Shown: positions 1-18,636 of the stretch, one piece after another
Numbering within the stretch: position 1 is the first letter of the stretch
Layout of the letters: each line of letters opens with the position of its first letter
Origin: a virus
DNA length: 24,431 nucleotides
IMG/VR virus record: IMGVR_UViG_3300042558_001321
Location: 1-24,431 of that record
Reading direction: 5' to 3' (one strand)
Translations under genes and position numbers: made by a program
The notes under the pieces: generated by a model
The model's database searches: none
Told to the model about the DNA's origin: nothing
What the model saw: only the letters and a program-made list of their open reading frames with translations

Positions 1-51
1 TAGTTTTCTTTAGAATTCTAATATAATTATAAACATAAAAAATTTATGTAA

Positions 52-61
52 ATATTTATCT
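52..61 (+). promoter_or_regulatory. AT-rich upstream element (ATATTTATCT)
   Basis: This lies in the 82-base leader of the giant fibre gene and matches 8 of 10 positions of the element ATATTTATAT found before other transcription-unit starts here. A TATAAACA box (28-35), one base from the T4 late-promoter box TATAAATA, lies just upstream. Such boxes also follow the elements before 8050 and 12853. Either could be a phage late promoter. No other feature is visible in the leader. Confidence 0.35.
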
Positions 62-82
62 TAGATTAATCAAAACAATATA

Positions 83-3000
83 ATGGCTAGAATTAAAAAA
101 TACTCACCTGAACTAAGTACACATTTAAGATATTTTGAAACATATTTGGTAGATACCATATCAAATTCTCAATATTTCAAAGTTACTGAATTCAAGGATG
201 TATTTACAGGTGGTAAGAATGGATTTTTAATAGAAGGTTCGGAGCACCTTATGGAATCTACTGAAATTAAGATTGAAATTCTTGATGTAGATGGTAACCC
301 TATATACTATGAACCGGGTAATGGTGTTCCTGAGTATTATGAAGGATTATCTAAAGTAATAGCTGTTTATGTTTATGAAGATACTCCAATTGGCGAAGCT
401 AGTATCACAATATTAGGAGAATTAAAAACTTACATTGATGAAAGTGGTAATAAGCAAGATATACCAGCTGAATGGAAAGGTATCTACAATGTAAAATGGG
501 AAAAGACATTCAAAGTAAATAAATTATTAGCAAATGAAGATAAAGTTAGATTTTATCGTAGACCGTCTGTATCTATTAATGAAATAGTTAAACCTATCTT
601 TTCAAATGTTGTAACTCCAATTATTCAAAAAGGTAAAGTTGATGGATTTGCACAAGTTCCAACATCTGGTACAAAATTAGCGGGATATACATTACCAACA
701 TCATATCTTTTACAAATAAACGATGGTAACAGCGCTTGGACTGGTTCTGTGGCGGGCACTAATATAGAACTTACTGATTTAGGTGTAAGTTTAACAGCAG
801 ATGATATTATAAATAATAGAGATTTAACTGTATCAACTCCATATACATTAAATGGTATTGTGCAGGATTTTACAAATCAAAGATATACTGCTTCTTTTAA
901 TTATTTAGAAGGATTGGATAATCTTAAAACAGCATTAACTGGTTCTTTTGCAAAAATAACATTAGCTGATTTAACTACATTTATTGGTGATGTTGCTAGA
1001 GTAAAAGTATTTAGAAAATCATCATCAGATTTAGCTGATTATCAATTTATACAAGAAGTTCAATTAGAATCAAATGAATTATTAGTTGATATCGAATCAA
1101 AGTTAAAGAATCAAGAAAACTATGGATTGTTTGATGTATTTAATTATAACAATATTGAGTATTGGCTAACTTCATCAAATAATTTAGATACTAGTTTTAA
1201 TCAAACGTATTTGTTTAATTCTGTTAGATTGGATAATACTACTGGTATAAATTCATATTTTACATCAAAATCATTACAACTTACAGAGGGGGCAGAGTAT
1301 AGTTTTACATTTAATACAAGACTTGCACAAAATATACCATCTAACAATTATCTAAAAGTATATTTAAGTGGTTCAAGAGAAACAACAGTAAATAATGTAC
1401 CTGTAAAGATTGGAGTACAACAAAATATTGTAACTGTAACACCTGATAGTAGTATTTTAGAAAAATCTCAAATAACTTCTAATTTCAAAGCGGAAAATAT
1501 AAAAAATGCAAGATTACATTTTGAAGTTAGTGGTACTGGGTGGTATATATCGGATGTTAGTTTAAGAGCATCACAAGAGACATCTTTTTCTCCTGATGAA
1601 ATAACTTTTATACAACCAATACCAAGAACATTACCTAAGCAAACTTTTGATTTTCTATTTCAATTTTATGATATTAATAACAATTATATTCCTGTTGTAG
1701 TTGAAGAAAGTAAAACATTTGATGGTGGTAACTTAGTATCAATAGCTAAGAATTTAGAATTAATACCATCTTCTCTTTATTTCCAAATAGATTCAGGTTC
1801 ACAACCATTACCACCAACAACTATATTCATTGATGTTGTTAAAAGCTTTTTAACTGGGTCTGTAACATTTACATCACGTTCATTTGATTTCTTTAATAAT
1901 GAATTATCGGCATCACAATATGCAATTCCCGGAGGACAATATCCTGGTAGATTAGACGATATCGATAAAGATACCGTTAGGATGACTGTAGAAAATTTCA
2001 CTGGTTCTAGAGAAGATATTAAAGTACAATTTGTAGAATTAACAGGTGCATGTGAAGGAGTTAGTGATACTATTGTAATAACACGTGTTCAAGATGGTTT
2101 TGGTGGAGTTAATTTTGAAATAAGACCTTACAATGGTATAGTAATACGAAATTCAGACCCATCATCTTCGTTAGAGGTGCAAGCAATTAGAATAGATGGT
2201 GTTAATGAAATTCCATTAAGAGAAAATTTACCATTTGGTAGAAGTGATGTACAATTATTCGTACAATCTGGTTCTACATATATTACTTTACAAGAAGCTA
2301 GTGATAGAGGATTTGTTAGAGGTTTGAGTGCTGGTACAACTGGCTCTGGTGAATTAAATTACAATGCTGTATTAAATAGAGATTCAATAGATGGACAGAG
2401 AACATTATATATGATTCCATCATCATCTTTTGATTTATCATCATCTATTTTAACATCTTTAACATTAACTGATTTACAAGATGGTTTGGATGCTGGTATA
2501 GTATTATTTGATGTGGATGCGTTTACAATAAATCCGAGATTAGAAAGTATATTTACACCCACATACGCATCAGCAACCGCATCATTCTATCGTAGAGGAA
2601 CATTTGATGCACCTATAAGTTGTTCATTTGAAGTATATCCATCAATGTCAATTAATATTGATTACGTTCCTGAATATTGGATGCAATATGTAACTCATAG
2701 TTGTAATCCTGATATTAGTGTAGTTGCATATGATGAAGTGGGTAATCTTATACCAGCAAGAGCAAATGCAGCAACATATCCATTGGGTGATGCACTTCAG
2801 CAATCTAAACAAATATTGTTGAGTTTTGTTTACACAGAACCTTGGACATCCTCATCAGTATCGGTGGATAAATTATTCACAATTGTTCCCGAAGGTAAGC
2901 CAGGTGATGAAAGTATAGTATTTGAAATAACACCAAAAGATGTTGTATTAGCAGCAAATTCAAGAGGAAGTGTAAATGATTATAAACCATCTATAACCGA

Positions 3001-6000
3001 TATTAAATTAAAGCAAGGTTCTAGATACTTATCATTTACTGCTAGTAGAGAACCTGGTACATTCCACATAGCACAAAATTCCATAATTGATACAAACGTA
3101 ACAGTAGGTAATGTGTATTTTGATGTGAATTATACATCATCACTAATTGTAAGTCAATCTAATTTCTTTGTTGATTTGAGTGGAAGTATTGAATACCCAT
3201 TGGAAATTCAACCATACTATACATCATCAGTTTATACTGCTAGTGTTATTCAGAATTACACAAAAGTATTAGATGGGCCTCCTCCAATTGAAATTATTAT
3301 AAGCCCATTATCAGCTAATATATCGGCTAATGAAGTTGGTTATGTAATACCATCTAATTATAATGCAGCTAATACTACTATAAAGGTAAAAGAAGGCGAT
3401 GATAGATTAACATTTACAACACAATCAAACGATCCTGGTACATTTAGAATACTATCGGTTAGTGGAAGTAGTATAAGAACTGGTTCATTATCAAGTTCAT
3501 CTTTTGATACTGGTACTATAAATTATAATAGATTTGATTATCCATTTGTATCAGCTAGTTCTTTATATACAATTGAAGTATATCCATACGCATTAGGTCC
3601 GGGTCATAGATATACATCATCAATCTATCAACGTACTCAAACTTTTACAAAAAATGTATCTGTACCAAATGCACGTTCTTTGAGTGCTGAAGCATCATCT
3701 GCTACGGTAAACTATGATAGAGATGGAAATGACCCACAACCATCCGATGTAAAGATAACAGCCAATGCATTTAATACAACAGGTTCTATATTTTATTATT
3801 ATTACATATTAGAACCAGATGGAAGTGAAACTTTATATGAAAACACATATACAAGCAATAATGGCGAAGTATATGCTTGGAGTGAGCAAAATTATATTGA
3901 TATTGATGCATCTAACTCAACTGCTCCCGGTGAAATTAGAACTTGGAAAGTAAAAATTAAAGATGGTAGTGATAGACCTGCTCCATTAACTCCAACCGAT
4001 TCCCATCCGTTTAGAGCTGAAGCTTCGGTTACTATTGCTGGTATAAAAGCTGGAGCAGATGCATACAAATACTCTGCAACAAATTTGAATACATCAATTA
4101 CAGCAGATTTATGGTCAACTCAATTTACGGGAAGTGGAATTCAAATATCAGCATATAAAGGTACTACTGAATTAGCACATACATCATCATATGTTGTATC
4201 GCAAGAGGTTAATGACTTTTTGGGTAACTTTATAGGAAATTTAGGATACTTTTCGGCATCAGTTCATTCTAAATCACCTTGGATTACTTTAGCTCAGAAT
4301 CCAACTAAATTCCCACCATCCAATCCAGCTGTATTAACCGATATTACAGCATGGAACGCACCTGCGGTTAATACATCTGGCGAAGTAATTTATAAAATAG
4401 ATTATGAAAAAAATAGACAAATTGATTATGTAACTCAATCGATATCTGTTCAATATACATCACCTGCTCCATATGATGTTAAGATGCAAAATGATAGTTC
4501 TGGTGTAGTTTATAGAGTATCTGGTGAGTTTGAATTAAATAATACTGGTAATATTATACGAGCATATAGAGGTGATACTGAATTAACAAACATATCTAAT
4601 TTTGCATACGCAACGGCGCAGCCAGATGCATATGGTGCTATGAAATACAAAGATAAATGTAGAATAAGTATATTAAGTATATCGGGTCATATAACATTAC
4701 AAGGCATAACTAATCCAGCAGGAGCATTTGTAAGTTCCAGTGTAAATGCACCAAAAGGGGGTGAACTACTTGGAATATCTACATGGACTAATCCTGAAGT
4801 AAATCAAACAGCAGAAATTGTATATCAAATAGATTGTGAAGATAGAGCAACATTTTTCAAAACACAATCTTTATCAGTTCAATTTGAAGGAAACACTGGG
4901 CCTGGTATTGTGATGAGAGGTATTTGGAAAAATAATATTGATTATATTGGTTCTGTTGAAACCACAAATAAACGTAGAGATTCTGTAATTTGGCCTGACC
5001 CGGCAACTTATAATAATGAAACTCATTATTGGGCTGCTGCAAGTGGAAGTGGACCTGGTACTTCGGCTGGATTTCGACAACCAGATAATGGTGGTTCTGC
5101 TGCACCTTGGGTTGATAGTCCATATTGGCAATATTTGGGACAGGAGGAATTCTTTGTAGCAGCACAAATTGCAATATTTCAAGAATCATATGTTAAAAAT
5201 ACAATCAACGTTGGTACTAAAGATGGCACTAGCGGATTTGCGAATATAATATTAGCTGGTGGTAGACCAGACCCATACATTGCAATTGGTCAAACCGGCA
5301 CACAAGGAACAGCAGGTACATCTGGTACATCGTTACCACCTGCTGGTATTATTGGATATGATAGACCTGGTGTTTTCTTAGGAATATACGAAAACGGAAC
5401 AGCTGGAACTACGGGTAGATTCTCAATAAAAACAACCGGAACTTCTGGAAAGGGAATGTCTTGGGATGGTGATACACTAACAATTGTTGGTGCAATTAGA
5501 CAAGTTGAACCTGGTGTTAGTGAAGGTTCTTTGAGGGGAGGATGGACTAGTGGATTTACTTATTACACAAATGATATAGTTTCATACGCAGGACAGAGTT
5601 GGAGATGTACATCAGCGCAAGCACAAAGTTATCAACACATTGCAACTAACGATACAGCTGCATTAACAGGATATCCGGGTTCGGGTCCTTGGGCTATAGC
5701 TGCAGCAGCTGGTACATCCGGAACTGCTGGTAGTGGTGGTACTGCTGGTGTAAATGGGGCAGCTGGAGCGGCTGGACCTGGTGTTGTTTATAGAGGGCCT
5801 TGGACTGGTAGTTTGCAATATTTCAAAACAACCGATAGAACGGATGTTGTTAGGGGAAGTGATAATCAATATTACATAGCAAAAGTAACACACACTCCAA
5901 ATGTAGTAAATGCACCAATAGGTACTGCTACTAGACCAATTGATGGTGCATCTTATTCAACATATTGGCAATCTTTTGGAGCAACATTTAGTTCAGTAGC

Positions 6001-8017
6001 AACTGGATTATTACTTGCTGAAAATGCAACGGTAACAAAAGGACTTGTAATAGGACAGGAAGGTAGTGATGTAGGGTTTATTCGTTCTGCTGGTGCACAA
6101 AGTATTGGTGGTGGTAATGGATTTTATATGGATGCTCTTGGTAATATGAGATTTGGGGCAGATACATCTACTGAAGGTAACTACGTTTATTGGAATAATA
6201 CTTTAGGAACATTAGATATAAATGGAACAATAACAGCAGATTCTGGTGAGATTGGTGGATTTACTATTGCCAATAATAAGCTAATCGCATCGGGGGCTTT
6301 ATTAAGATTTGATACACAAGCACCATCGATAGAATTTTACACAAACGCAACTGGTTCTGCTAAAGTAGTATTAAATCCAAAAGCAACATTAACTGACCCA
6401 AGCGGACAAATTATATATATAAGTGGTTCACAATACGATGGTACGGATGGTAACAGAACATCAACATCTGGAACTACTAATACTACTAACGTAATTACTG
6501 AAGTATATAGTGGTTCGTTTGGTATATCAGCAAACAGTACATATTCAGGTGCAACTCTAGCCTTTAGTGAAGCTGGTAATACCAATTTTATTGTGTATAT
6601 TCCAGAAACATCTTTAACTATATCAACGACTTCACCAAGTGCAGCTTCGGATTACCCACCCGACCCACCACAATATGGATACGAAACATATCAATCGGAA
6701 TATGCCGCTCCGGGTAATGCATCTGCCCAATGGTATGTACAAATGTACAATTCAACTGGAACAACGTTTATATCTGAAGTTGCAATAAATGGAGCATCTA
6801 CATATAGAAGTGGTACTTCAAGTAATTCCTATTATACTGCAGTAGTATCATATAGCGGATTCCCTTATTATACCGAATCATACTATTGGAATTATTCATC
6901 ATACTCATCAACAGCATATTATCAGGGAAATATTCCATTTGGGTCTAAAGCAGGTCAACTGATAATACCAGCACCGGGTATATATCAATTTAGATTAGTA
7001 CTAAAAGTTACAGCTGTATCGGCAGCTATATATAATTATGTTGGTGGTGGAAATACATATTATACTACAACCGGAACTTCTAATCATACAACAACTGGTG
7101 ATATTACTTTTCAATTTTCTCCAAACGTAAATAAAACGGAAATAACGAATGGTGGTATTCAAGTATTATCAAATCAAAATGCTTATGTTCGTTTTAATAG
7201 AATCGAACCAAGTGCATATGGTGGGGGTTCTGCAGTTGCAGAATTTGTTGGTGGTGCGATTAATGTATCTGCATTTGGTGGATATCCAACAAGTTTGAGT
7301 AATACTGGTATCTATATGAATGGTGGATTGGTTTCAAATGGCAAAACTAATTATTTAGGTGATTATTACTTTGATGGAACTGGTACACAAGAATCAGCCA
7401 GATTGGGTGGAAGAAACACAGCAACAGCTGCAGACCAAACGTATATAACTTCATATTCTAATTTTTTACCAGGAAGTGATAACTACTGGACGATAGGAAA
7501 ATCTGGACAAAAATGGAAACAAATATGGTCAAATACCGGAACTATACAAACATCCGATGCAACCCAAAAATTAGAAATAGAACAATCGCAATTAGGATTG
7601 GATTTTATAAATAGATTACAACCAGTTTCATATAAATTTATTTCTGGAAGTGCTATTACTGAAAAAATTGAGGATTATATAAAAACAGTTAAAGAACCGG
7701 CTATCATAACTCCCGATGGAACTATAATAAAAGAAGAAGTTATTGAATATATAAAAAATGAACAAATACCAAACGTAACTTGGACTCCTGGTATAAGAAA
7801 ACATCATGGGTTGGTTGCACAGCATGTAAAAACAATTTTGGATGACATGGGACTTTCAACAAATGATTTTGCTGGATATATTGAGGGTGATTTAGAAAAT
7901 CATTCTGATTTGGGGTTACGTTATGAAGAATTTATGGCTCCTATGATTAAAGCAATACAGGAATTAGCATCTAAAGTTGATAGATTAGAGGCACATATAA
8001 GTGGTTCGTTTTCTTAA
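83..8017 (+). CDS. Giant tail fibre / receptor-binding protein with S74 chaperone
   Basis: A 2644-residue structural protein, very rich in Ser, Thr, Gly and Asn, most likely a host-recognising tail fibre. Residues 1-190 are non-repetitive and may attach to the tail. Beta-rich duplicated modules fill about 940-1190 and 1327-1605. Three Trp/Tyr-rich carbohydrate-binding-like modules (about 1606-1690, 1818-1873, 1900-1967) are joined by collagen-like Gly-x-y linkers. Residues 2040-2070 look like the short beta-repeat typical of fibre shafts. The C-terminus from Ser2491 is an S74 intramolecular chaperone: the TSD motif has Lys2496 five residues after the Ser, as expected for the Ser-Lys self-cleavage pair of the endosialidase family, followed by LQPVSYKF, HHGLVAQHV and a terminal heptad-like helix. 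Self-cleavage before Ser2491 would release about 154 residues after trimerisation. The fibre role is confident; the receptor is unknown. The start is the first ATG in an A/T-rich leader. Confidence 0.88.
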   Translation: MARIKKYSPELSTHLRYFETYLVDTISNSQYFKVTEFKDVFTGGKNGFLIEGSEHLMESTEIKIEILDVDGNPIYYEPGNGVPEYYEGLSKVIAVYVYEDTPIGEASITILGELKTYIDESGNKQDIPAEWKGIYNVKWEKTFKVNKLLANEDKVRFYRRPSVSINEIVKPIFSNVVTPIIQKGKVDGFAQVPTSGTKLAGYTLPTSYLLQINDGNSAWTGSVAGTNIELTDLGVSLTADDIINNRDLTVSTPYTLNGIVQDFTNQRYTASFNYLEGLDNLKTALTGSFAKITLADLTTFIGDVARVKVFRKSSSDLADYQFIQEVQLESNELLVDIESKLKNQENYGLFDVFNYNNIEYWLTSSNNLDTSFNQTYLFNSVRLDNTTGINSYFTSKSLQLTEGAEYSFTFNTRLAQNIPSNNYLKVYLSGSRETTVNNVPVKIGVQQNIVTVTPDSSILEKSQITSNFKAENIKNARLHFEVSGTGWYISDVSLRASQETSFSPDEITFIQPIPRTLPKQTFDFLFQFYDINNNYIPVVVEESKTFDGGNLVSIAKNLELIPSSLYFQIDSGSQPLPPTTIFIDVVKSFLTGSVTFTSRSFDFFNNELSASQYAIPGGQYPGRLDDIDKDTVRMTVENFTGSREDIKVQFVELTGACEGVSDTIVITRVQDGFGGVNFEIRPYNGIVIRNSDPSSSLEVQAIRIDGVNEIPLRENLPFGRSDVQLFVQSGSTYITLQEASDRGFVRGLSAGTTGSGELNYNAVLNRDSIDGQRTLYMIPSSSFDLSSSILTSLTLTDLQDGLDAGIVLFDVDAFTINPRLESIFTPTYASATASFYRRGTFDAPISCSFEVYPSMSINIDYVPEYWMQYVTHSCNPDISVVAYDEVGNLIPARANAATYPLGDALQQSKQILLSFVYTEPWTSSSVSVDKLFTIVPEGKPGDESIVFEITPKDVVLAANSRGSVNDYKPSITDIKLKQGSRYLSFTASREPGTFHIAQNSIIDTNVTVGNVYFDVNYTSSLIVSQSNFFVDLSGSIEYPLEIQPYYTSSVYTASVIQNYTKVLDGPPPIEIIISPLSANISANEVGYVIPSNYNAANTTIKVKEGDDRLTFTTQSNDPGTFRILSVSGSSIRTGSLSSSSFDTGTINYNRFDYPFVSASSLYTIEVYPYALGPGHRYTSSIYQRTQTFTKNVSVPNARSLSAEASSATVNYDRDGNDPQPSDVKITANAFNTTGSIFYYYYILEPDGSETLYENTYTSNNGEVYAWSEQNYIDIDASNSTAPGEIRTWKVKIKDGSDRPAPLTPTDSHPFRAEASVTIAGIKAGADAYKYSATNLNTSITADLWSTQFTGSGIQISAYKGTTELAHTSSYVVSQEVNDFLGNFIGNLGYFSASVHSKSPWITLAQNPTKFPPSNPAVLTDITAWNAPAVNTSGEVIYKIDYEKNRQIDYVTQSISVQYTSPAPYDVKMQNDSSGVVYRVSGEFELNNTGNIIRAYRGDTELTNISNFAYATAQPDAYGAMKYKDKCRISILSISGHITLQGITNPAGAFVSSSVNAPKGGELLGISTWTNPEVNQTAEIVYQIDCEDRATFFKTQSLSVQFEGNTGPGIVMRGIWKNNIDYIGSVETTNKRRDSVIWPDPATYNNETHYWAAASGSGPGTSAGFRQPDNGGSAAPWVDSPYWQYLGQEEFFVAAQIAIFQESYVKNTINVGTKDGTSGFANIILAGGRPDPYIAIGQTGTQGTAGTSGTSLPPAGIIGYDRPGVFLGIYENGTAGTTGRFSIKTTGTSGKGMSWDGDTLTIVGAIRQVEPGVSEGSLRGGWTSGFTYYTNDIVSYAGQSWRCTSAQAQSYQHIATNDTAALTGYPGSGPWAIAAAAGTSGTAGSGGTAGVNGAAGAAGPGVVYRGPWTGSLQYFKTTDRTDVVRGSDNQYYIAKVTHTPNVVNAPIGTATRPIDGASYSTYWQSFGATFSSVATGLLLAENATVTKGLVIGQEGSDVGFIRSAGAQSIGGGNGFYMDALGNMRFGADTSTEGNYVYWNNTLGTLDINGTITADSGEIGGFTIANNKLIASGALLRFDTQAPSIEFYTNATGSAKVVLNPKATLTDPSGQIIYISGSQYDGTDGNRTSTSGTTNTTNVITEVYSGSFGISANSTYSGATLAFSEAGNTNFIVYIPETSLTISTTSPSAASDYPPDPPQYGYETYQSEYAAPGNASAQWYVQMYNSTGTTFISEVAINGASTYRSGTSSNSYYTAVVSYSGFPYYTESYYWNYSSYSSTAYYQGNIPFGSKAGQLIIPAPGIYQFRLVLKVTAVSAAIYNYVGGGNTYYTTTGTSNHTTTGDITFQFSPNVNKTEITNGGIQVLSNQNAYVRFNRIEPSAYGGGSAVAEFVGGAINVSAFGGYPTSLSNTGIYMNGGLVSNGKTNYLGDYYFDGTGTQESARLGGRNTATAADQTYITSYSNFLPGSDNYWTIGKSGQKWKQIWSNTGTIQTSDATQKLEIEQSQLGLDFINRLQPVSYKFISGSAITEKIEDYIKTVKEPAIITPDGTIIKEEVIEYIKNEQIPNVTWTPGIRKHHGLVAQHVKTILDDMGLSTNDFAGYIEGDLENHSDLGLRYEEFMAPMIKAIQELASKVDRLEAHISGSFS
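2902..3660 (+). repeat. Two tandem beta-rich modules in the giant fibre
   Basis: Two successive modules of about 126 residues align. The first carries FEITPKDVVLAAN and, later, EPGTFHI; the second carries IIISPLSANISAN and DPGTFRI. Both end in a Tyr/Ser-rich strand containing YTSS. They resemble immunoglobulin-like stacking domains of fibres and probably arose by internal duplication. The DNA copies have diverged, so the duplication is old. A more distant relative may start near residue 675 (FEIRPYNGIVI). Boundaries are approximate. Confidence 0.6.
4060..4895 (+). repeat. Second duplicated module pair in the giant fibre
   Basis: Two modules of about 135 residues follow each other. Shared landmarks in order are a Tyr-initiated strand, AYKGTTEL versus AYRGDTEL, SPWITLAQ versus SGHITLQG, ITAWNAPAVN versus ISTWTNPEVN, EVIYKIDYE versus EIVYQIDCE, and QSISVQY versus QSLSVQF. 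This is a different family from the pair near 2902-3660. Boundaries are approximate. Confidence 0.7.
4896..5990 (+). repeat. Three carbohydrate-binding-like modules with collagen-like linkers
   Basis: Three segments share the layout G(I/P/G)W, a Tyr-rich stretch, a polar -DxV- strand, a Trp/Tyr strand and a closing W. They start near MRGIWKNNIDY, GGWTSGFTYYTNDIVSYAG and YRGPWTGSLQY. The second closely resembles the CBM5/12-like chitin-binding layout. Gly-Thr-Ser/Ala triplet linkers, collagen-like, lie at about 5288-5345 and 5700-5785. Binding to glycans is inferred from the pattern only. Confidence 0.5.
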
Positions 8018-8022
8018 AAAAT

Positions 8023-8037
8023 ATATACTTATATATA
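8023..8037 (+). promoter_or_regulatory. AT-rich upstream element, 15-base exact repeat (copy A)
   Basis: ATATACTTATATATA sits 12 bases before the first coiled-coil gene, in the 32-base gap after the fibre stop. The same 15 bases recur exactly at 16322-16336 and with one change at 12816-12830. It is followed by TATAAACA at 8034-8041. It is a candidate phage late promoter, and its position at gene-unit starts is the evidence. Confidence 0.45.
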
Positions 8038-8049
8038 AACAATTATATT

Positions 8050-8328
8050 ATGGCAGAATTAAAAGAAGCATTATCATCTGATGTATTGGAAACATTAAGA
8101 AACAACCAAAATGAATTAAATACACTTATTATGGATATTGGTCAAGTAAGTCTTAGAAATAGAGAACTAAGAACTGAATTATCGAAATTAGACCAATTAA
8201 AGAATTCTATGGAGATTAGATTCGATGAAATTAATAATGAAATAAATACTACATTAGCTGAATTGGAAAAAACATATCCAAAAGGTGAAGTTGATTTAAG
8301 AGAAGGTACTATAACTTTCGAAAAATAA
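8050..8328 (+). CDS. Small coiled-coil protein, paralogue of the 12853 gene
   Basis: A 92-residue acidic, helical protein of unknown function. Residues 5-75 are almost entirely heptad-like and predict a long coiled coil. The C-terminus is a short turn and strand (YPKGEVDLREGTITF). It aligns along most of its length with the 127-residue protein at 12853: both begin MAEL and share LI.D.G, R..EL..EL..LD, EIN.TL..L...YP.G and GTI. The two genes flank the sugar cassette and share the same upstream element. It lies directly behind the giant fibre, so a fibre-associated or tail-assembly role is possible but not shown. The ATG is in an A/T-rich leader without a Shine-Dalgarno site. Confidence 0.75.
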   Translation: MAELKEALSSDVLETLRNNQNELNTLIMDIGQVSLRNRELRTELSKLDQLKNSMEIRFDEINNEINTTLAELEKTYPKGEVDLREGTITFEK

Positions 8329-8353
8329 ATTAGGAATACTCGAATAAATTTCG

Positions 8354-8361
8354 TATCTTTG
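8354..8361 (+). promoter_or_regulatory. Bacteroidota-type -7 promoter box (TATCTTTG)
   Basis: TATCTTTG is a perfect match to the Bacteroidota housekeeping -7 consensus TAnnTTTG and lies 18 bases before the start of the glycosyltransferase fusion. No convincing -33 TTTG was found at the usual 19-21 base spacing, so this is a partial match. A small inverted repeat, CGAA-TAAAT-TTCG (8341-8353), abuts it upstream and could be an operator or chance. No other inter-gene gap in the window shows this box. Confidence 0.5.
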
Positions 8362-8379
8362 TTACATTAATTAGTCTAA

Positions 8380-10542
8380 ATGAAAAATACACGCAAAAAG
8401 TTACTTTATATATGTCCGCACCTCTCAACCGGCGGACAACCTCAATATACTTATAAGCAAATAAAACACTTTATCAAAGATTTTGATATTGAGGTGGTGG
8501 AATTGAATAATAGTGGGGGTGATGCATTTGTTGTTCAAAAAAATAGAATAAAATCCTTAGCATTAGTACATACATTAAGTGATGACAAATCAAAGGTATT
8601 GGATGTAATAAAAGAATTCAAACCTGATATTATACACTTTCAAGAAATTCCACAATTTGATTTACCATCAAATATATTAGACCAAATCTTTACAAAAGAT
8701 AGAGAATACTTTATCATTGCAACTACACATGGTTCATTTACAAATCCATCTGAAATAGTATATCACCCAGACAAATATGTTTTAGTATCTGAATGGAGTA
8801 AGCAGAGATTTGAAGATACTGGTGTTGAACTTGATTTATGGGAATATCCAATTGAAGAATATGAATTTGATAAAGATGCTGCAAAACAAAAGTTAGGATT
8901 GGACCCAACTTGGAAACATGTTCTTAATGTTGGGTTATTTTCACCTGGCAAAAATCAAGCTGAAATATTTGCAATAGCAAGACAATTAGAAAAGTATAAA
9001 ATTAAATTTCATTTTGTAGGAAATCAAGCTATGAATTATGAAAGTTATTGGTTACCTTTAATGAAACATAAACCTGAGAATTGTGTTGTATGGGGTGAGA
9101 GAGATGATGTGGATACGTTTTACGCAGCATGTGACCTTTTCTATTTTTCATCAGTTTTAGAATTAAATCCATTATCAGTTAAAGAAGCATTATCTTTTAA
9201 GATGCCTTGTTTATTCAGAAAGTTAGCAACTTATTTGGATACATATGATAGTAATTCATTAGTACAATATATCAACGATGATGTAAAACTAACCAAACGA
9301 TATATTTTAGAAAAACTTCAACCCGATTTCAATGAAATACCAGGTTGGTTTGCATATGAAGAATTATATGATAAAATGGTAGAGGTTGCAAATGATAATT
9401 GTGTATTCGTTGAGGTTGGTGCTTGGTTTGGTAAATCTACAAATCATTTGGCAAAAAAGATTAGAGAATCTAAAAAAAATATACACTTTACAACGGTAGA
9501 TACTTGGAAAGGTACTGATGATGAGGATATACATCAAACAATAGTTGGTTCATTTTCTGGCGATATATTTTATGAATTTATAGATAATACAATCTATTCT
9601 AATAATTACGGACAAATTGAAACTATAAAAGATACATCAAGAAACGCAGCTAATAACTTTGCAAATAATAGTATTGATTATATAATGTTAGATGCAGGAC
9701 ATAGTTATGATGCATTAAAAGATGATTTGAATGTTTGGTATAATAAAGTAAAACCTGGTGGAATTGTTAGTGGTGATGATTATGGAGTATTCTATGGTGT
9801 AACACAAGCAGCAGATGAATTTTTCTATGGACAGTTTGAAAAAGGATTTCGTTCATTTATTAGAAAAAAACCACGTATTCAAGTAAGACATTTATTAACT
9901 AAGCCAGATGATGTTAGAGAAAGAGTTAGTATGGCATCTATAAAGCAATTGGCTAAATATGGTATTGATTATTTCCCAATGGTTAATACTCCATACGATA
10001 AATTGCCACCTGCGGAATTTTGTAAAAGACCGGAACATATATCAGATAAGCCTGGCAATTTTGGAAATGGATTAGGTCCATTAACAGGTAGGCATTATGG
10101 TTGTTTTGAGGCTCATAGAAAAGCATTAGAAACGATGAGTGATGAGTATGATTACACTTTAATATTTGAGGCAGATGCATTCATCTACACTGGTTTGGAA
10201 GAATTTGTTGAGTTGGTAAATAGAGCATGTTTTATAACCGAAAGAGATGATGTGTATTATATTGGATTAGCAAACAATGGTTCTAGAAATAAAGAGCATG
10301 TTGATGATTTATTTTCAAAAACAGCTGCTAACCAAGACTTAGCACATGCATACCTAATACCAAATCGTACAAAGCAATGGTGGGTTGATAGATTCAATGA
10401 TACCCCTTGGGAAGGGTTTGATATTTGGTTGACTGATGTATTTTATAAAGAACCAAAATTAAGATATACAACAAATAAAATATACTGTAAACAATCGGAG
10501 GGATTCTCTCTAATAGACCAAACTATTAAAACTTGGAGTTAA
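8380..10542 (+). CDS. GT4-like / methyltransferase / GT25-like fusion protein
   Basis: A 720-residue protein with three apparent enzymatic domains. Residues 5 to about 310 look like a GT-B glycosyltransferase of family 4: an N-terminal GGQPQYTYK loop and the EX7E motif with Glu261 and Glu269 in a SSVLELNPLSVKEAL context. Residues 335-500 look like a class I SAM-dependent methyltransferase (Methyltransf_24-like): FVEVGAWFGKST with Glu345, Gly347 and Gly351, then MLDAGHSYD with Asp438 and His441, then KPGGIVSGDD. Residues 515-720 resemble GT25 enzymes: YGCFEAHRKALE (Cys575, His579) and LIFEADAF (Glu597, Asp599) in place of the usual acidic EDDA-like motif. It has no signal peptide or membrane segment, so it should be cytosolic. 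It leads the sugar cassette and its stop overlaps the next start (TAATG). Sugar donors and the acceptor cannot be told from sequence. Confidence 0.75.
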   Translation: MKNTRKKLLYICPHLSTGGQPQYTYKQIKHFIKDFDIEVVELNNSGGDAFVVQKNRIKSLALVHTLSDDKSKVLDVIKEFKPDIIHFQEIPQFDLPSNILDQIFTKDREYFIIATTHGSFTNPSEIVYHPDKYVLVSEWSKQRFEDTGVELDLWEYPIEEYEFDKDAAKQKLGLDPTWKHVLNVGLFSPGKNQAEIFAIARQLEKYKIKFHFVGNQAMNYESYWLPLMKHKPENCVVWGERDDVDTFYAACDLFYFSSVLELNPLSVKEALSFKMPCLFRKLATYLDTYDSNSLVQYINDDVKLTKRYILEKLQPDFNEIPGWFAYEELYDKMVEVANDNCVFVEVGAWFGKSTNHLAKKIRESKKNIHFTTVDTWKGTDDEDIHQTIVGSFSGDIFYEFIDNTIYSNNYGQIETIKDTSRNAANNFANNSIDYIMLDAGHSYDALKDDLNVWYNKVKPGGIVSGDDYGVFYGVTQAADEFFYGQFEKGFRSFIRKKPRIQVRHLLTKPDDVRERVSMASIKQLAKYGIDYFPMVNTPYDKLPPAEFCKRPEHISDKPGNFGNGLGPLTGRHYGCFEAHRKALETMSDEYDYTLIFEADAFIYTGLEEFVELVNRACFITERDDVYYIGLANNGSRNKEHVDDLFSKTAANQDLAHAYLIPNRTKQWWVDRFNDTPWEGFDIWLTDVFYKEPKLRYTTNKIYCKQSEGFSLIDQTIKTWS

Positions 10543-11690
10543 TGATATACGATAATTTAATTAAAAATACTAATACTATAAGAGAAGTACAAAATAAAGT
10601 ACATTTTCATTTTGTTAAAGGACCTTTTGTTGAAATAAAAGGAAGTAAATCCGCTGACTATAAAATACAATTTATAGACAATAAAACAGGTAAAATACAT
10701 TTTACATCTAACATAAAAAATAATTGTTGGTGTAGATGTAGTATTGAATATTTTGTTGAATGGAAAATTGTAATTTATGAAAACGATAAATTATGGTATG
10801 AAAGCATATATAATGCATCCGATAAAAGGGTATATATAGCATTTGATTCTCGAGCATTAGGTGATTCATTAGCATGGTTTCCTTATGTTGATGAGTTTCG
10901 TAAAAAACATAATTGTAAAGTAATAACTTCTACTTTTATGAATGATATGTTTATAGGGCAGTATCCTGATATTGAATTTGTAACTCCTGGTTCGAGTGTA
11001 ACTGATTTATATGCTATGTATTCGGTTGGTTTATTTTATAATGAAGATAGTACTATCAATGGATTGAAGAACCCAAATAATTTTAGAGAGCAAACTATGC
11101 AGAAAATGTGTTCTGATATTTTGGGCATAGAATATACAGAAATAAAACCAAAAGTTAAGCAACGAAATGTTAATATTGATAATGACTTAAAGCAAGTTTG
11201 TATTGGAGTATTTGGAACTGCTCAATCTAAATTTTGGAATAATCCTACTGGTTGGCAAGATGTAGTTGATTGGTTAAATAATAGAGGATATACCGTAAAA
11301 TTGTTATCAAAAGAAAATGATGATTATATGGGTAATCGATATCCAAACGGAATAGTTAAACATCCAAATGGACCAATTGAATTGGTTATGGATGAAATGA
11401 AAAAATCAAAAGCATTTATTGGTATTGGAAGTGGGTTAAGTTGGTTAAGTTGGGCATTGGATGTCCCCACAGTATTGATTAGTGGATTTTCATATGATTG
11501 GGCTGAAATGCAAGAATGTTATAGAGTAACATCACCCAAAGGAAAATGTGAAGGGTGCTTTAATAGATTAAGATTAAATGCAGGTGATTGGAATTGGTGT
11601 CCTGACCATAAAGGTACTGAAAGACAATTTGAGTGTACTAAAAGTATTACATCCGAAATGGTAATCAACGAATTGGAAAAGTTTTTATAA
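10542..11690 (+). CDS. Protein O-heptosyltransferase, TibC/autotransporter type
   Basis: A 382-residue relative of the 'autotransporter strand-loop-strand' O-heptosyltransferases (TibC, AAH, BAHT), which move heptose from ADP-heptose to Ser residues of beta-solenoid surface proteins. Visible hallmarks are HFVKGPFVEI near the N-terminus, FDSRALGDSLAWFPYVDEF, NNPTGWQDVVDWL, FIGIGSGLSWLSWALDVPTVLISGF (residues around 287-311, including the GSGLSW donor loop), and four cysteines at 336, 339, 353 and 365 matching the family's metal (iron) finger. The length is close to TibC, about 400 residues. A TTG nine bases upstream would extend it, but the ATG overlapping the preceding stop is preferred. It is followed, again through TAATG overlap, by two ADP-heptose-synthesis-like genes, which supports the donor assignment. 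The acceptor is unknown. Confidence 0.82.
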   Translation: MIYDNLIKNTNTIREVQNKVHFHFVKGPFVEIKGSKSADYKIQFIDNKTGKIHFTSNIKNNCWCRCSIEYFVEWKIVIYENDKLWYESIYNASDKRVYIAFDSRALGDSLAWFPYVDEFRKKHNCKVITSTFMNDMFIGQYPDIEFVTPGSSVTDLYAMYSVGLFYNEDSTINGLKNPNNFREQTMQKMCSDILGIEYTEIKPKVKQRNVNIDNDLKQVCIGVFGTAQSKFWNNPTGWQDVVDWLNNRGYTVKLLSKENDDYMGNRYPNGIVKHPNGPIELVMDEMKKSKAFIGIGSGLSWLSWALDVPTVLISGFSYDWAEMQECYRVTSPKGKCEGCFNRLRLNAGDWNWCPDHKGTERQFECTKSITSEMVINELEKFL

Positions 11691-12076
11691 TGAAAAAGGT
11701 TTGGATTAATGGCTGCTTTGATGTTTTACATTATGGCCATTTTAAGTTGATAGATTACGCAAAATCTTTTGGAGATTTAGTAATAGGTATTGATTCGGAT
11801 GAACGAATTAAAGAGATGAAAGGTGATGGTAGACCTTTTCATACCGAAGGACAGAGAGTATTTAATTTAATGCAAATACGGGATGTTGATAAAATTGTAG
11901 TGTTTGATAGTGATGATTCATTGAGAAATCATTTGAAAACATACCAACCAGATATATTTGTAATTGGAGATGAGTATATGTACAAACCGATAATTGGTGG
12001 GGAATCTGCAAAGGAAATAAAATTCTTTGGTAAATTGGATGGATTTAGCACCACAAAACTTTTAGATGATGAGTAA
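11690..12076 (+). CDS. HldE C-terminal-like nucleotidyltransferase (ADP-heptose synthesis)
   Basis: A 128-residue cytidylyltransferase-like enzyme that probably joins heptose 1-phosphate to ATP, giving ADP-heptose. GCFDVLHYGH holds the HxGH nucleotide-binding motif (His14, His17). IDSDERIKEMKGDGRPFHTEGQR matches the VNSD..TK.LKGD.RP...EQR stretch of HldE domain II, and GFSTTKLL (118-125) matches its C-terminal GCSTTNII. It is the size of a single domain, so the usual HldE fusion is split here. TagD or other CTP-dependent members share the fold, but the KGDxRP and STT motifs and the neighbours favour heptose. It overlaps the heptosyltransferase by one base and the kinase by 11. Confidence 0.8.
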   Translation: MKKVWINGCFDVLHYGHFKLIDYAKSFGDLVIGIDSDERIKEMKGDGRPFHTEGQRVFNLMQIRDVDKIVVFDSDDSLRNHLKTYQPDIFVIGDEYMYKPIIGGESAKEIKFFGKLDGFSTTKLLDDE

Positions 12077-12809
12077 AGTATTAGTTATAGGAGAAAGTTG
12101 TACTGATATTTTTGTGTATGGTACATCAAAACGCAAATCACCAGAAGGTAATGGACCTGTTTTTGTTCCAATTAGTGAAACCTATGGGTTGGGTATGGCC
12201 GGAAATACTGCTAATAATTTAATGGCTATGGGTTTAGATGTTGATACATATTTTGATGATGGTATGATTACCAAAACAAGGTATGTGAATCAAAACACAA
12301 ACGAATTGTATTTGAGAGTAGATGAAAATGATACAACTAATAAAATAGATGTATCTGATTTACCTGATTTAGTAAAATACGATGCGGTGGTTATATCGGA
12401 TTATTGCAAAGGATTTCTAACAGAAGAAGATATTAGTACAATAGCATCTATGGCTAAGTTTACAATATTAGATACTAAAAAAAGATTGGGTGATTGGTGT
12501 ATGGATATTAATTTTATAAAATTAAATAGACAGGAATTTCAAAATAACTTTGGAGTTGTAAAAGAAAATGATTGGTTATTTGATAAAATTATATGTACAT
12601 TAGATAGAGGTGGGGCTATGTATAAAACTAAAACATTCAAAGTTGAATCGGTAGATTCTGCGGATGTTAGTGGAGCTGGTGATACCTTTACAGCTGGGTT
12701 TACCAAAAAGTATTTAGAAACCAATAGTATCGAACAATCAATAGAGTATGGAAATTATTGCGCTGGAGTGGTTGTAAAAGAAAAAGGGGTTTCTGTGTTC
12801 AAAAATTAA
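12066..12809 (+). CDS. HldE N-terminal-like sugar kinase (PfkB family)
   Basis: A 247-residue PfkB/ribokinase-family kinase most like HldE domain I, which phosphorylates D-glycero-D-manno-heptose 7-phosphate at O1. Evidence: VLVIGESCTDIFVYG at the start, GLGMAGNTANNLMAMG (the sugar-binding glycine stretch), VVISDYCKGFLT matching HldE's LSDYGKG, LDTKK, and the PfkB signature DVSGAGDTFTAGF with catalytic Asp206. It is about 70 residues shorter than the usual 315-320-residue domain, mainly between the glycine stretch and ISDY, so a minimal phage version or altered specificity is possible. Two adjacent ATGs (12066, 12069) are equally plausible starts. The order is nucleotidyltransferase then kinase, the reverse of the fused cellular HldE. 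GmhA and GmhB, needed for the complete pathway, are not in the window. Confidence 0.8.
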   Translation: MMSKVLVIGESCTDIFVYGTSKRKSPEGNGPVFVPISETYGLGMAGNTANNLMAMGLDVDTYFDDGMITKTRYVNQNTNELYLRVDENDTTNKIDVSDLPDLVKYDAVVISDYCKGFLTEEDISTIASMAKFTILDTKKRLGDWCMDINFIKLNRQEFQNNFGVVKENDWLFDKIICTLDRGGAMYKTKTFKVESVDSADVSGAGDTFTAGFTKKYLETNSIEQSIEYGNYCAGVVVKEKGVSVFKN

Positions 12810-13271: not shown

Positions 13272-16200
13272 ATGAAGGGATTGGCAAAATTTTTAGTGGA
13301 ATCAATATTGGAAGAAGCGGCAGGGATAGACAAAGTAGTTGTTGTCTATTCAGGCCGCTTTCAACCATTTCATAAGGGCCACTACGCAACTTATGAAAAT
13401 TTAGTACGAAAATTCGGTAAGGATAACGTATATATCGGAACTTCTAATGTTACCGATTCAAAGAAATCTCCATTTAATTTTAAGGAAAAAAAAGCAATAA
13501 TGATGCAGATGTTTGGGATACCATCATCTAAAATTGTTAATGTCAAAAATCCATATGCACCTGAAGAAATATTAAAGAAATATGATTCAGATACAACTGG
13601 TGTAATTGTTGTAGTGGGTGAAAAAGACCAAAATCGTTTAGGTGGTAAATATTTTACACCGTATAAAGGTAAAGTTGATAAAGGGTATTTAGATAAAGGA
13701 TATGTTTATGCCTCCCCATCACAATCAAATCCTATAAGTGGAACGGATGTTCGTTATTGGTTAAGCGCTGGTAGTGAATCTGAAAGGAAAAATAATTTTA
13801 CAAAAGCCTATCCAAAGTTTGACAATCAGATTTTCAAATTAATTACTCTTAAGTTAAAAAGCTTAAAAGAATGTATTAATGAGGAAATCAAATTAAACGT
13901 AAAAGTTGGTGATACTCTATTGATGGGTAAATTCAAAAACAAAAAAGTAGTTGTTAAATCAATAGGTGAAGATGAGTGGGGAATGCCAACAATCAATGGT
14001 AAGAAAGCAGTAACATTCAGAATTCCTAAAAAAGAAAATTTGAAAGAAGTTAATCTTGGTGGATATGGTGCTGATCCTGGTGAACCTGATACTGGATATG
14101 TTCCTGATGGTAAAGCTAGAGTATTAAATACTACAAAACCAGAACCTTGGTTTAATCAAGGAGGATATACTCAAATGGATACTCCAAAAGCAGACGCTAT
14201 GAGAGGTAGAGGTAAATCAAAAGATACTGAAACTCAATTTAGAAAAGCATATTATAAGGTTAAAAACGTAAATCAAAGTACATTAAATCCGGCAGATGAC
14301 CCACATAAGGTTGAAGATTGGGAAGAAACTAATAGAGATACTCCATTAGAAAAACCTAAAAGATTTTGGGAATTGCCTGATAATCAAAAAGATACAATAA
14401 TTTCAAAAGAAGATATTAAAGAAATAGTTGAAGATTTTGATTCTATGTTGGATGAGATGGGACTTGGTGGTGGAGCTGGTGTAGGTTTGAGTTTATCTGG
14501 CGGATATATCAATGGTGCACCCGATAGTGATGATGTTAAGAGGGTTAGTAAAAAACTTAACAACAAAGGTATGAGTGGATATGAGGAAATTGATGAAGAT
14601 GTTAATTCTGATACAATAGAATGTTCAAAATGTGGTTGGGAATGGAAAAAATCCGAAGGTGGTGAACATCCATATACCTGCCACAAATGCGGCAATGATA
14701 ATGAACCAAAAATAACGGAAGGATTAAAAGAGTTAGAGAATCAATTAGTATCATTATATAATAAGGCTTTTAAGATGATGCCAATGTCTCCTGCACAAAT
14801 GAAAGTTAGAGCTGAGATAGACAAACTTAAAAAACAAATAGATTCATTAAAGAAAGAATCAGTAAACGAAGCAACTGCATCGGAAATCGTAAAAGATTTG
14901 GATAAGGTAAGACATGATTTGATTAAAAAAGTAGATGTTCTAATAGCTAAAAAGAAAAAACTTTATTCTAATGTTGATATCGAATCTCCAATGAGCGCAG
15001 ATGAAAAGCAGTTGGATAAAGATATACAATCTATATTTTCGAAAATTCAACAAATAATCCAGCAAAAAAGAAAAATAAAAGAATCAATAAACGAATCTTT
15101 ATTATTGGAAGGTGGGGCTTATGGACATATGGCACATCCATTTGATATTGAGATGAACCTTACATTTGGTGACCTTAAAACAATTGTAACCAAAGCACTA
15201 AATGGTGATTTGGAATTAGCAAGAGAAAAGACTGATGGACAGGCATTGGCAGTTAGTTGGGTAAATGGTAGATTAGTTGCAGCTCGTAACAAATCACACC
15301 TAAAGAACAAAGGAGCTGGTGCTATGACAATAGGACAGGTAGCAGATAAGTTTGCTGGTAGAGGTGGATTAACCGATGCTTACAATTTCGCTATGCAGGA
15401 TTTATCTAAAGCAATTGCAGCTCTATCTGAACCTCAACGTAAGAAGATATTTAAGGATGGTAGTTCGTTTATGAACTTGGAAGTAATATACCCAACCTCT
15501 GTAAACGTAATCCCTTACAATCAACCCCTATTGGTATTTCATGGTACATTTGATTATGATATCGATGGTACTATTGTAGGTGAGAACCAACAAGCGGCAT
15601 CTATATTGGGTGGAATGATTAAGCAGGTAAATGCACATGTTCAATCGAAGTACACAATACAAGGACCACCAATGAATAAGTTACCTAAATCAGAAGACCT
15701 TTCTAAATTAAAAGGAAAGTATATTTCAATGATTGGAAAACTTCAATCTGAATTTGGACTATCTGATAATGATGGTGTGGCTGATTATCATCAAGCATGG
15801 TGGACTAAATTTGTAGAAAAGGGTGGAAAGAAGTTAGATGCTCAAGAAAAAATAGGATTGGTTAAGAGATGGGCTTTTAACGATAAAGCATTCCGTATTA
15901 ATACAATACAAGACCCAAAACTAAAAGCATGGGCTGAGCAAATAGATAAACAAGACCAACAAAAGATATCAAAACAAAATCTAATGAGATTTGAGGAGAT
16001 ATTCTTAGGAGTTGGTGCGGATGTACTATCCTTTATGAGTTCGGTACTTACAGCAAACCCTGATAGTGCCAAAAGACAAATGGTAGCCCGTTTGGAATCT
16101 ACTATCCAACAAGTAAAAGCAAGTGGTGACCCTAAGAAGATTGCAAAATTGAAATTAGAGTTAGAACGATTAAACGCTTTAGGTGGATTTGATAAAATTG

Positions 16201-16304
16201 TACCAAACGAAGGTATTGTATTTGTGTATAACGGCAACACATATAAACTAACAGGAGCATTCGCTCCGCTAAATCAAATTTTAGGTATTTTCTTCGATAG
16301 TTAA
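13272..16304 (+). CDS. NMNAT-like / zinc-ribbon / ligase-like multidomain virion protein
   Basis: A 1010-residue mosaic. After a short amphipathic N-terminus (FLVESILEE then Ala16), residues 21-195 form an HxGH nucleotidyltransferase with GRFQPFHKGH (28-37) and ISGTDVR (155-161), the layout of archaeal-type NMN adenylyltransferases. Residues 206-253 are a small beta domain (VGDTLLMGKFKNKKVVVKS). C451, C454, C470 and C473 form a zinc ribbon. Residues 480-605 are helical and lysine-rich. From about 614 (GGAYGHMAHPFD) runs a ligase-like covalent nucleotidyltransferase domain: KTDGQ with Lys653, FMNLEVIYP, EGIVF near 980 and YKLTGAFAP near 988, matching motifs I, III, IV and V. Motifs I and IV are about 325 residues apart, so a helical insertion lies between. 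Junctions carry [IVL]xE sites (E204, E533, E613) like T4 prohead-protease cuts. It is likely a head-packaged polyprotein; substrates are unproven. Confidence 0.72.
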   Translation: MKGLAKFLVESILEEAAGIDKVVVVYSGRFQPFHKGHYATYENLVRKFGKDNVYIGTSNVTDSKKSPFNFKEKKAIMMQMFGIPSSKIVNVKNPYAPEEILKKYDSDTTGVIVVVGEKDQNRLGGKYFTPYKGKVDKGYLDKGYVYASPSQSNPISGTDVRYWLSAGSESERKNNFTKAYPKFDNQIFKLITLKLKSLKECINEEIKLNVKVGDTLLMGKFKNKKVVVKSIGEDEWGMPTINGKKAVTFRIPKKENLKEVNLGGYGADPGEPDTGYVPDGKARVLNTTKPEPWFNQGGYTQMDTPKADAMRGRGKSKDTETQFRKAYYKVKNVNQSTLNPADDPHKVEDWEETNRDTPLEKPKRFWELPDNQKDTIISKEDIKEIVEDFDSMLDEMGLGGGAGVGLSLSGGYINGAPDSDDVKRVSKKLNNKGMSGYEEIDEDVNSDTIECSKCGWEWKKSEGGEHPYTCHKCGNDNEPKITEGLKELENQLVSLYNKAFKMMPMSPAQMKVRAEIDKLKKQIDSLKKESVNEATASEIVKDLDKVRHDLIKKVDVLIAKKKKLYSNVDIESPMSADEKQLDKDIQSIFSKIQQIIQQKRKIKESINESLLLEGGAYGHMAHPFDIEMNLTFGDLKTIVTKALNGDLELAREKTDGQALAVSWVNGRLVAARNKSHLKNKGAGAMTIGQVADKFAGRGGLTDAYNFAMQDLSKAIAALSEPQRKKIFKDGSSFMNLEVIYPTSVNVIPYNQPLLVFHGTFDYDIDGTIVGENQQAASILGGMIKQVNAHVQSKYTIQGPPMNKLPKSEDLSKLKGKYISMIGKLQSEFGLSDNDGVADYHQAWWTKFVEKGGKKLDAQEKIGLVKRWAFNDKAFRINTIQDPKLKAWAEQIDKQDQQKISKQNLMRFEEIFLGVGADVLSFMSSVLTANPDSAKRQMVARLESTIQQVKASGDPKKIAKLKLELERLNALGGFDKIVPNEGIVFVYNGNTYKLTGAFAPLNQILGIFFDS

Positions 16305-17040: not shown

Positions 17041-18636
17041 ATGAGTACTGGTATAACACAAAAGAAATCCCTAAAGGATATTATTGCAGAAGAATACAAA
17101 AAGTGTGCGGTAGACCCGATTCACTTTATGAAAAAGTATTGTATGATTCAGCATCCGGTTAGAGGTAAAATACCTTTCCACCTATTCCCATTTCAGGAAA
17201 AGACCCTAACACAATTCGCAGGTAATAGATTTAATATAGTATTAAAATCACGTCAAACTGGTATCTCAACCTTATCGGCTGGATATGCACTTTGGAAAAT
17301 GATATTCAATTCGGATTTTAACGTATTGGTTATTGCAACAAAGCAAGATGTTGCAAAGAACTTAGTAACAAAGGTAAGAGTGATGCATGAATTGCTTCCT
17401 AGCTGGCTTAAGAACGGGTCTATGGAAGATAACAAACTTTCCCTTCGTTTAACAAATGGTTCTCAAATTAAGGCTATTGCTTCCTCTCCTGATGCAGGAC
17501 GTTCTGAAGCCCTATCACTTCTAATATTTGATGAGGCCGCTTTCATTGATGATATCGATGATATATGGGTAGCTGCACAATCAACACTATCTACGGGTGG
17601 TAGTTGTATTGCATTATCTACTCCAAATGGTGTGGGTAATTGGTTTCATCAAACTTGGTTAGGAGCTGAGGAAAGTAGAAACCCATTCAACACAATCAGA
17701 TTACATTGGACAGTTCATCCTGAAAGAGACCAAACATGGAGAGACCAGCAACAAGAATTGTTGGGTGCAAAAAAAGCAGCTCAAGAATGTGATTGTGATT
17801 TTGTATCTTCAGGTGAAACGGTTGTTGATCCTGAACTTCTTATGTTTTATAAAGAAACATATTGCCAAGAACCATTAGAAAAGACTGGATTCGATGGTAA
17901 CCTTTGGAGATGGGAATATCCTAATGCAAATAGTTCATATATGGTTGTGGCGGACGTTGCTAGAGGTGATGGTGCCGATTACTCAACGGCTCAAATAATA
18001 GATATACAAACAGCTACACAAGTTGCAGAATATAAAGGAAAAATTGATACTAAAGATTTTGGTAATTTTTTAGTAAATCTATCAACTGAATATAATGAAG
18101 CATTACTTGTTATTGAAAACGCAAATATTGGCTGGGCTGCAATTCAACAATGTATAGATAGACAATATAAAAATCTATTTTATATGAGTAAAGATTTGAA
18201 ATATGTAGATGTTGAACAGCAATTACGAAATAAATACAGAGCTGAAGAAAGGGGTATGGTAGCTGGATTCTCAACTACATCAAAGACTAGACCACTAATT
18301 ATATCTAAATTAGATGAATATTTTAGAGAAAAAGCAATTATAATTCGTTCTAATCGTTTGATAGATGAACTATTTACATTTATTTATATGAATGGTAGAG
18401 CCGAAGCTATGAAGGGTTATAATGATGACTTGGTTATGTCGTTATCAATAGCTTTATGGGTTAGAGACACGGCACTTCGTTTAAGACAAGAGGGTATTGA
18501 TTTAACAAAACGAACTTTGGGAGGTATATCATCTAATATGCAACATGTTGGTATATATGGTGGAAGTAATTCAGAGGACAACCCTTGGAAGATGAGAGTA
18601 GGTGATGGATTTGAAGATTTATCTCAATGGTTATAG
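17041..18636 (+). CDS. Terminase large subunit (gp17-like)
   Basis: A 531-residue packaging motor: an ATPase that drives DNA through the portal, and a nuclease that cuts concatemers. The ATPase domain shows a Walker A-type loop KSRQTGIST (69-77), Walker B LLIFDEAA (160-167, Glu165 catalytic) and the coupling motif STPNG (193-197). The RNase H-like nuclease shows VVADVARGDGADYS (Asp305), LLVIENANIGW (Glu359) and GYNDDLVMS (Asp462/Asp463). Layout and length match T4 gp17-type enzymes, though T4 gp17 itself is longer, about 610 residues. The P-loop lacks the Lys normally before the final Thr; Lys69 at its start may take that role, as described for lambda-type terminases. The ATG follows the previous stop by one base. 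Confidence 0.95.
   Translation: MSTGITQKKSLKDIIAEEYKKCAVDPIHFMKKYCMIQHPVRGKIPFHLFPFQEKTLTQFAGNRFNIVLKSRQTGISTLSAGYALWKMIFNSDFNVLVIATKQDVAKNLVTKVRVMHELLPSWLKNGSMEDNKLSLRLTNGSQIKAIASSPDAGRSEALSLLIFDEAAFIDDIDDIWVAAQSTLSTGGSCIALSTPNGVGNWFHQTWLGAEESRNPFNTIRLHWTVHPERDQTWRDQQQELLGAKKAAQECDCDFVSSGETVVDPELLMFYKETYCQEPLEKTGFDGNLWRWEYPNANSSYMVVADVARGDGADYSTAQIIDIQTATQVAEYKGKIDTKDFGNFLVNLSTEYNEALLVIENANIGWAAIQQCIDRQYKNLFYMSKDLKYVDVEQQLRNKYRAEERGMVAGFSTTSKTRPLIISKLDEYFREKAIIIRSNRLIDELFTFIYMNGRAEAMKGYNDDLVMSLSIALWVRDTALRLRQEGIDLTKRTLGGISSNMQHVGIYGGSNSEDNPWKMRVGDGFEDLSQWL

Follow-up and report, generated by a model that had tools for sequence, protein, structure and literature searches.

What does a phage do with a protein O-heptosyltransferase encoded close to a tail-fibre gene, and on which protein would it act? 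We addressed this in a window that comprises an entire 24,431-base IMG/VR fragment, which, judged by its genes, comes from a T4-like myovirus, a freshwater virus infecting bacteria. Six genes run in a row on the + strand, from the fibre (83) to the kinase (12809), and terminase, portal and protease genes lie further along the window:

83..8017, + strand: giant tail-fibre-like protein, 2644 aa, with an S74 chaperone domain (PF13884), syntenic in relatives; nearby candidate acceptor
5288..5332, + strand: collagen-like array in the fibre, residues 1736-1750, GQTGTQGTAGTSGTS
5711..5782, + strand: collagen-like array in the fibre, residues 1877-1900, GTSGTAGSGGTAGVNGAAGAAGPG
8050..8328, + strand: small variable coiled-coil-like protein, 92 aa, between the fibre and the glycosylation genes (weak DUF7491 match below cut-off; synteny)
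8380..10542, + strand: three-domain protein with a GT4 glycosyltransferase, Methyltransf_24 and a weak GT25-like C terminus (Pfam PF00534, PF13578; PF01755 at E 0.013; synteny)
10542..11690, + strand: TibC/Aah-type O-heptosyltransferase, 382 aa, with an N-terminal beta-barrel, a GT-B core and a four-Cys iron-finger (TIGR04414, PDB 4rap, predicted fold)
11690..12076, + strand: HldE C-domain-like nucleotidyltransferase, 128 aa, accessory (TIGR02199; phrog_7878)
12066..12809, + strand: HldE N-domain-like pfkB sugar kinase, 247 aa, compact, accessory (TIGR02198; phrog_8133; fold)
17041-18636: large terminase
19135-20919: gp20-like portal
22947-23543: prohead protease

The gene at 8380-10542 is part of the transferase cassette; wherever both are present among 81 IMG/VR relatives (window included), the GT4 and methyltransferase gene directly precedes the transferase with a short overlap. 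A GT25 identity for its C terminus was kept as weak, the PF01755 match reaching only the E value given above. Across the whole group, the cassette is adjoined by a 1010-aa gene (13272-16304) with an N-terminal NadR-like nucleotidyltransferase domain and, later in its product, an EKTDG motif resembling the active site of nucleic-acid ligases.

A transferase of the TibC type

The first-pass annotation had read three overlapping genes as a TibC-like O-heptosyltransferase and both halves of HldE. The genes are there as described (10542-11690, 11690-12076 and 12066-12809), their matches to TIGR04414, TIGR02199 and TIGR02198 lie far beyond chance, and every motif it named was recovered: GSGLSW and the four Cys in the transferase, HYGH, KGDGRP and STT in the nucleotidyltransferase and DVSGAGDTF in the kinase. 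The transferase runs from ATG 10542, which overlaps the preceding gene's stop codon (TAATG), to 11690. It scores 286.6 bits against TIGR04414 (E 2.7e-85; curated cut-off 200 bits), and its sole PDB sequence match is TibC (4rap, E 6.8e-55). Structure prediction, proposed at first pass as a check on this likeness, bore it out: the predicted structure (pLDDT 79.6) aligns with TibC at TM 0.82 over 373 alignment columns, N-terminal domain included, compared with TM 0.40-0.53 for WaaC and other GT9 enzymes.

In TibC, D110 is the catalytic base, T226, K230 and W305 bind the sugar and R286 contacts adenine (PMC4358343). The window enzyme has D108, T226, K230 and W301 at the matching sites, together with C336, C339, C353 and C365 (numbered from ATG 10542), to which we assign an iron-finger with predicted iron binding. 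These four catalytic residues and the four Cys are invariant across 84 phage homologues, and in a set of 43 sequences that takes in bacterial homologues the sole variable position is T226, which can be Ser. The exception to the TibC likeness is Arg286, which is needed for TibC (PMC4358343): its counterpart is V282 in the window, Val throughout the window's group and Val, Ile, Leu, Thr or Ala in most homologues, being variable in the array-linked branch described below. Pro300, the stereoselectivity residue of TibC and Ser in AAH (PMC4358343), is replaced by G296.

The curated model, the PDB match, the predicted fold and the conserved residues make the identity as a TibC-type protein O-heptosyltransferase well supported. 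On these comparisons of sequence the enzyme class is firm and the exact donor less so; because Arg286 has been lost, the nucleotide or the sugar may differ. Since this arginine and an autotransporter partner were both lacking, while the model, fold, catalytic residues and iron-finger all agreed, we file the enzyme as a variant branch working like TibC and not as a canonical autotransporter heptosyltransferase.

The first-pass annotation had also suggested an altered host surface, which now looks less likely. A role in modifying host lipopolysaccharide or capsule, thereby blocking superinfection, has been proposed for phage glycosyltransferases and the rfaE genes of pelagimyophages (PMC7029224), and would suit both the GT4 domain upstream of the transferase and the LPS-related annotation of cyanophage heptose genes (PMC7378029). 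Against such a role, the transferase shares its N-terminal domain and iron-finger with protein heptosyltransferases, its gene sits beside a fibre gene and the best LPS heptosyltransferase model reaches only 27 bits on it, so that we consider host-surface modification the least probable of the readings weighed here.

Accessory genes and the donor sugar

The HldE assignments stood in part. The two HldE domains are, by a wide margin, the best NCBIfam models for both small genes, though the nucleotidyltransferase (93.8 bits against TIGR02199, E 8e-27) and the kinase (99.6 bits against TIGR02198, E 1.8e-28) fall far below the curated cut-offs of 181.5 and 345, respectively. Because these cut-offs are not reached, both genes are labelled HldE-like only. 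The predicted fold of the kinase is pfkB, near HldA and other pfkB kinases, and leaves its substrate undecided.

The two genes are accessory. Among 81 group members (window included), 24 carry both, 13 carry the nucleotidyltransferase alone (one being truncated at its contig end) and 44 carry neither (one cut just past the transferase), giving the nucleotidyltransferase in 37/81 and the kinase in 24/81. Their slot is constant in these 81 members, between the transferase and a 127-aa gene. The claim that the phage makes its own activated heptose is thus supported only in part: the window encodes at most two of the four steps to activated heptose, and the host donor must suffice in many relatives. 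A complete heptose pathway in the group gained no support, as a GmhA search of four of its large contigs, themselves perhaps incomplete, gave no match. The HldE-type nucleotidyltransferase was rejected as a marker for transferase phages, TIGR02199 being matched in 4/14 array contigs against 3/14, with no enrichment. Separately, the 636-kb jumbo phage LR756504.1 encodes a GmhA above cut-off at 430182-430640, around 27 kb from its transferase.

These observations bear on the possibility that the enzyme and the kind of protein acceptor are as proposed and that another nucleotide-sugar is made and used. The residues found in place of Arg286, the sub-threshold scores of both supply genes, the cytidylyltransferases that are the nearest PDB sequences to the nucleotidyltransferase and the archaeal nucleoside kinase that Foldseek ranks beside HldA for the kinase would all fit a different donor. 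However, HldE domains remain the best models for both genes, KGDGRP and STT resemble the HldE C-domain, and the GmhA of LR756504 also speaks for heptose; we therefore regard a different donor as unlikely, if the strongest of the alternatives.

Gly-Thr-Ser arrays as candidate acceptors

An autotransporter acceptor with strand-loop-strand repeats was sought in the window and rejected: neither the fibre nor six other window proteins matched the NCBIfam autotransporter target repeat (E up to 1). The fibre instead bears two short collagen-like arrays, and the one at 5711..5782 comprises 8 Gly-X-Y triplets, compared with a longest run of 6 among 2000 shuffles. The first-pass annotation had named the Ser/Thr-rich fibre next door as the first candidate acceptor. 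A phage fibre appears right in kind; the signal, however, lies in collagen-like arrays and not in general Ser/Thr richness.

In the window's group, array ORFs are present in four large contigs. A 136-kb contig has arrays of at least 4 triplets in two ORFs only (4539 and 4717 aa), 30-60 kb downstream of the transferase, and in contigs of 57.7 kb and 49.8 kb the array ORFs lie around 20 kb downstream. Long arrays in the large relatives thus occur in fibre-like ORFs other than the neighbouring fibre, 20-60 kb downstream, and the fibres of some relatives have no short arrays. In a 266-kb relative, an array-bearing fibre, the GT4/methyltransferase gene, the transferase, the nucleotidyltransferase and the kinase follow one another directly, and an insertion precedes the terminase. 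In the nearest cultured phage, Microcystis phage Mel-JY01, the transferase is fused behind GT4/methyltransferase domains and the genome has 70 array matches. Its transferase-bearing protein is annotated 'methyltransferase FkbM' (the regions concerned in Mel-JY01 are 4750-8430 and 1-3052), and two CDS annotations that overlap its 1016-aa + strand array ORF from the opposite strand may be mistaken.

The pairing was first spotted in bacteria. In 7/8 bacterial loci, a gene 8-172 bp from the transferase homologue encodes an array protein with GTS, GSS and GTT triplets; these loci belong to Methylobacter (two), Methylococcaceae (two), a Polaromonas metagenome-assembled genome (MAG), an Arenicellales MAG and a gammaproteobacterial MAG. 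Judged by eye, the N termini of the seven array proteins resemble an export signal or lipobox, and Collagen PF01391 was found in both of the two proteins scanned with Pfam. Five of these genomes match the array DNA pattern nowhere but near the transferase gene (positions compared by hand). A survey of 369 genomes found array-pattern matches in 23 and the transferase in 2, the DNA pattern also matching repeats that do not code for Gly-Thr-Ser. Transferase homologues fused or arranged as in phages occur in MAG contigs labelled Rickettsiaceae, Bacteroidetes, Thermoplasmatales and 'bacterium', which are possibly phage contigs binned into MAGs.

Because the pairing had been seen in these same bacterial loci, which makes the bacterial part post hoc, we ran an independent test on viral contigs selected solely by the array DNA pattern and scored the transferase as a TIGR04414 match. 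It was present in 14/22 (10/14 contigs of at least 80 kb and 4/8 of 56-73 kb), with 13 of the 14 matches above the cut-off. Fourteen large contigs picked by a random 15-base pattern had the transferase in 0/14 and arrays in 0/14 (Fisher, 14/22 versus 0/14: 8e-5, with contigs counted as independent and without lineage correction). A proline-collagen control gave 1/16, the same contig also bearing Gly-Thr-Ser arrays; this control is weak, its DNA pattern being palindromic and often matching GC-rich sequence by chance. The transferases of the array contigs have a median pairwise identity of 38% and therefore do not represent one recent clone. The complete phages immuto and S-SM2 have neither transferase nor arrays. 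Conversely, 8/22 array contigs have no transferase, some of them perhaps being fragments, and the jumbo phage LR756504 has a divergent transferase homologue and no match to the array pattern. Five viral fragments of 43-55 kb without arrays were excluded from the counts against the association because they end around 10 kb or less downstream of the transferase or terminase (judged by contig ranges), before the region that holds the arrays in the larger relatives. In one contig, an array ORF is adjoined by a large glycosylation island, which holds two transferases, part of a third and several further genes.

The association, seen across unrelated viruses and bacteria, points to the arrays as the likely sugar target. 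The acceptor could instead be the neighbouring fibre or the 92-aa protein, modified on loops of a folded domain as TibC modifies TibA, with Gly-Thr-Ser arrays merely common in large phages. The fibre, the 92-aa gene, the GT4/methyltransferase gene and the transferase are syntenic across the group, and Ser and Thr make up 20% of the fibre versus 9-13% of other proteins, as such an acceptor would lead one to expect. Yet Ser/Thr richness is common among fibres, the strand-loop-strand target repeat was not found, and in bacteria, outside phages, arrays adjoin the transferase gene as well; a folded acceptor accordingly seems improbable to us.

A virion cassette acting on collagen-like arrays is the most economical account, and we put the probability that the cassette decorates a virion fibre by O-heptosylation of Ser/Thr in such arrays at about 0.62. 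The 10542-11690 enzyme would take heptose from a donor, most likely ADP-heptose, and attach it to the Ser/Thr hydroxyls of Gly-Thr/Ser-Ser arrays within fibres that the phage produces in the infected cell; the upstream GT4/methyltransferase/GT25-like protein would then probably extend or methylate the glycan. In phages that have them, the HldE-like kinase and nucleotidyltransferase may top up the donor from host heptose phosphate, and relatives without them would depend on the host for it. The sugar may make the arrays stiffer, more soluble or better protected, or alter what the fibre binds. Counting against this account are the loss of Arg286, the absence of arrays from LR756504 and of the transferase from some array contigs and array-pattern genomes, the beta-helix nature of the known TibC acceptor and the array-less fibres of some relatives. 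With somewhat less confidence, at a little better than even odds, we extend the account to the whole TibC-type branch in phages and bacteria as a collagen-glycosylation system, which would O-glycosylate Thr/Ser of Gly-Thr-Ser arrays in tail fibres and secreted bacterial proteins, with some phages bringing donor enzymes.

Known systems and implications

The window enzyme resembles TibC/Aah (BAHT, TIGR04414; PDB 4rap and 4rb4) over its full length in sequence and fold, in the catalytic Asp, Thr, Lys and Trp and in the four iron-finger Cys. It differs in having Val for Arg286 and Gly for Pro300, in being phage-borne and often fused to GT4/methyltransferase domains, and in its partner, collagen-like array proteins instead of an autotransporter with strand-loop-strand repeats. 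The closest families to the supply genes are HldE (RfaE) and its relatives in the cyanophages S-SM2, P-SSM2 and S-CAM1, in which kinase and nucleotidyltransferase are likewise split. Unlike HldE, the window genes score far below the curated cut-offs, and SPEGxGPV replaces the HldE-type PEAPVPV. In cyanophages, by contrast, heptose genes lie among other sugar genes, the kinase and nucleotidyltransferase being accompanied by an annotated isomerase and epimerase (PMC7378029), and S-SM2 has no TibC-type transferase. The annotated phosphoheptose isomerase of S-SM2 (11981-12292) is around 103 aa long and has no TIGR00441 match, which makes that annotation doubtful.

Sugar on collagen-like Gly-X-Y proteins of surface structures has precedents in BclA of Bacillus spores and mimivirus collagen (PMC8968730), for which no report of a TibC-type transferase was found in the literature searched. 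Mycobacteriophages also carry sugars on virion proteins (Freeman 2023, cited in PMC12619734); as described in that citing account, the modified sites are the C termini of capsid and tail-tube subunits, unlike the arrays proposed here. Phage virion glycosylation, phage heptose genes, phage collagen-like repeats and glycosylated bacterial collagens were each known already (PMC12619734, PMC7378029, PMC7029224 and PMC8968730). The literature searched gave no relevant link between heptosyltransferases and collagen-like repeats and no mention of GTSGTSG in phages; papers beyond that scope may contain such a link. The combination of a heptosyltransferase with collagen-like arrays appears to be new.

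Protein heptosyltransferases of this family are known from autotransporter adhesins; the present findings put forward a concrete candidate acceptor for them and suggest what the Gly-Thr-Ser arrays of large phages may be for. Mel-JY01, a cultured phage, has both the transferase and the arrays, and the claim is therefore testable now. If it is true, the transferase would be a tool to glycosylate recombinant collagens, and, if the reading of the whole branch holds, many phage glycosyltransferases currently taken to modify LPS or DNA would instead act on the virion. Sugar-coated collagen-like fibres would then be a widespread virion trait of freshwater phages, with a bearing on host recognition and particle stability.
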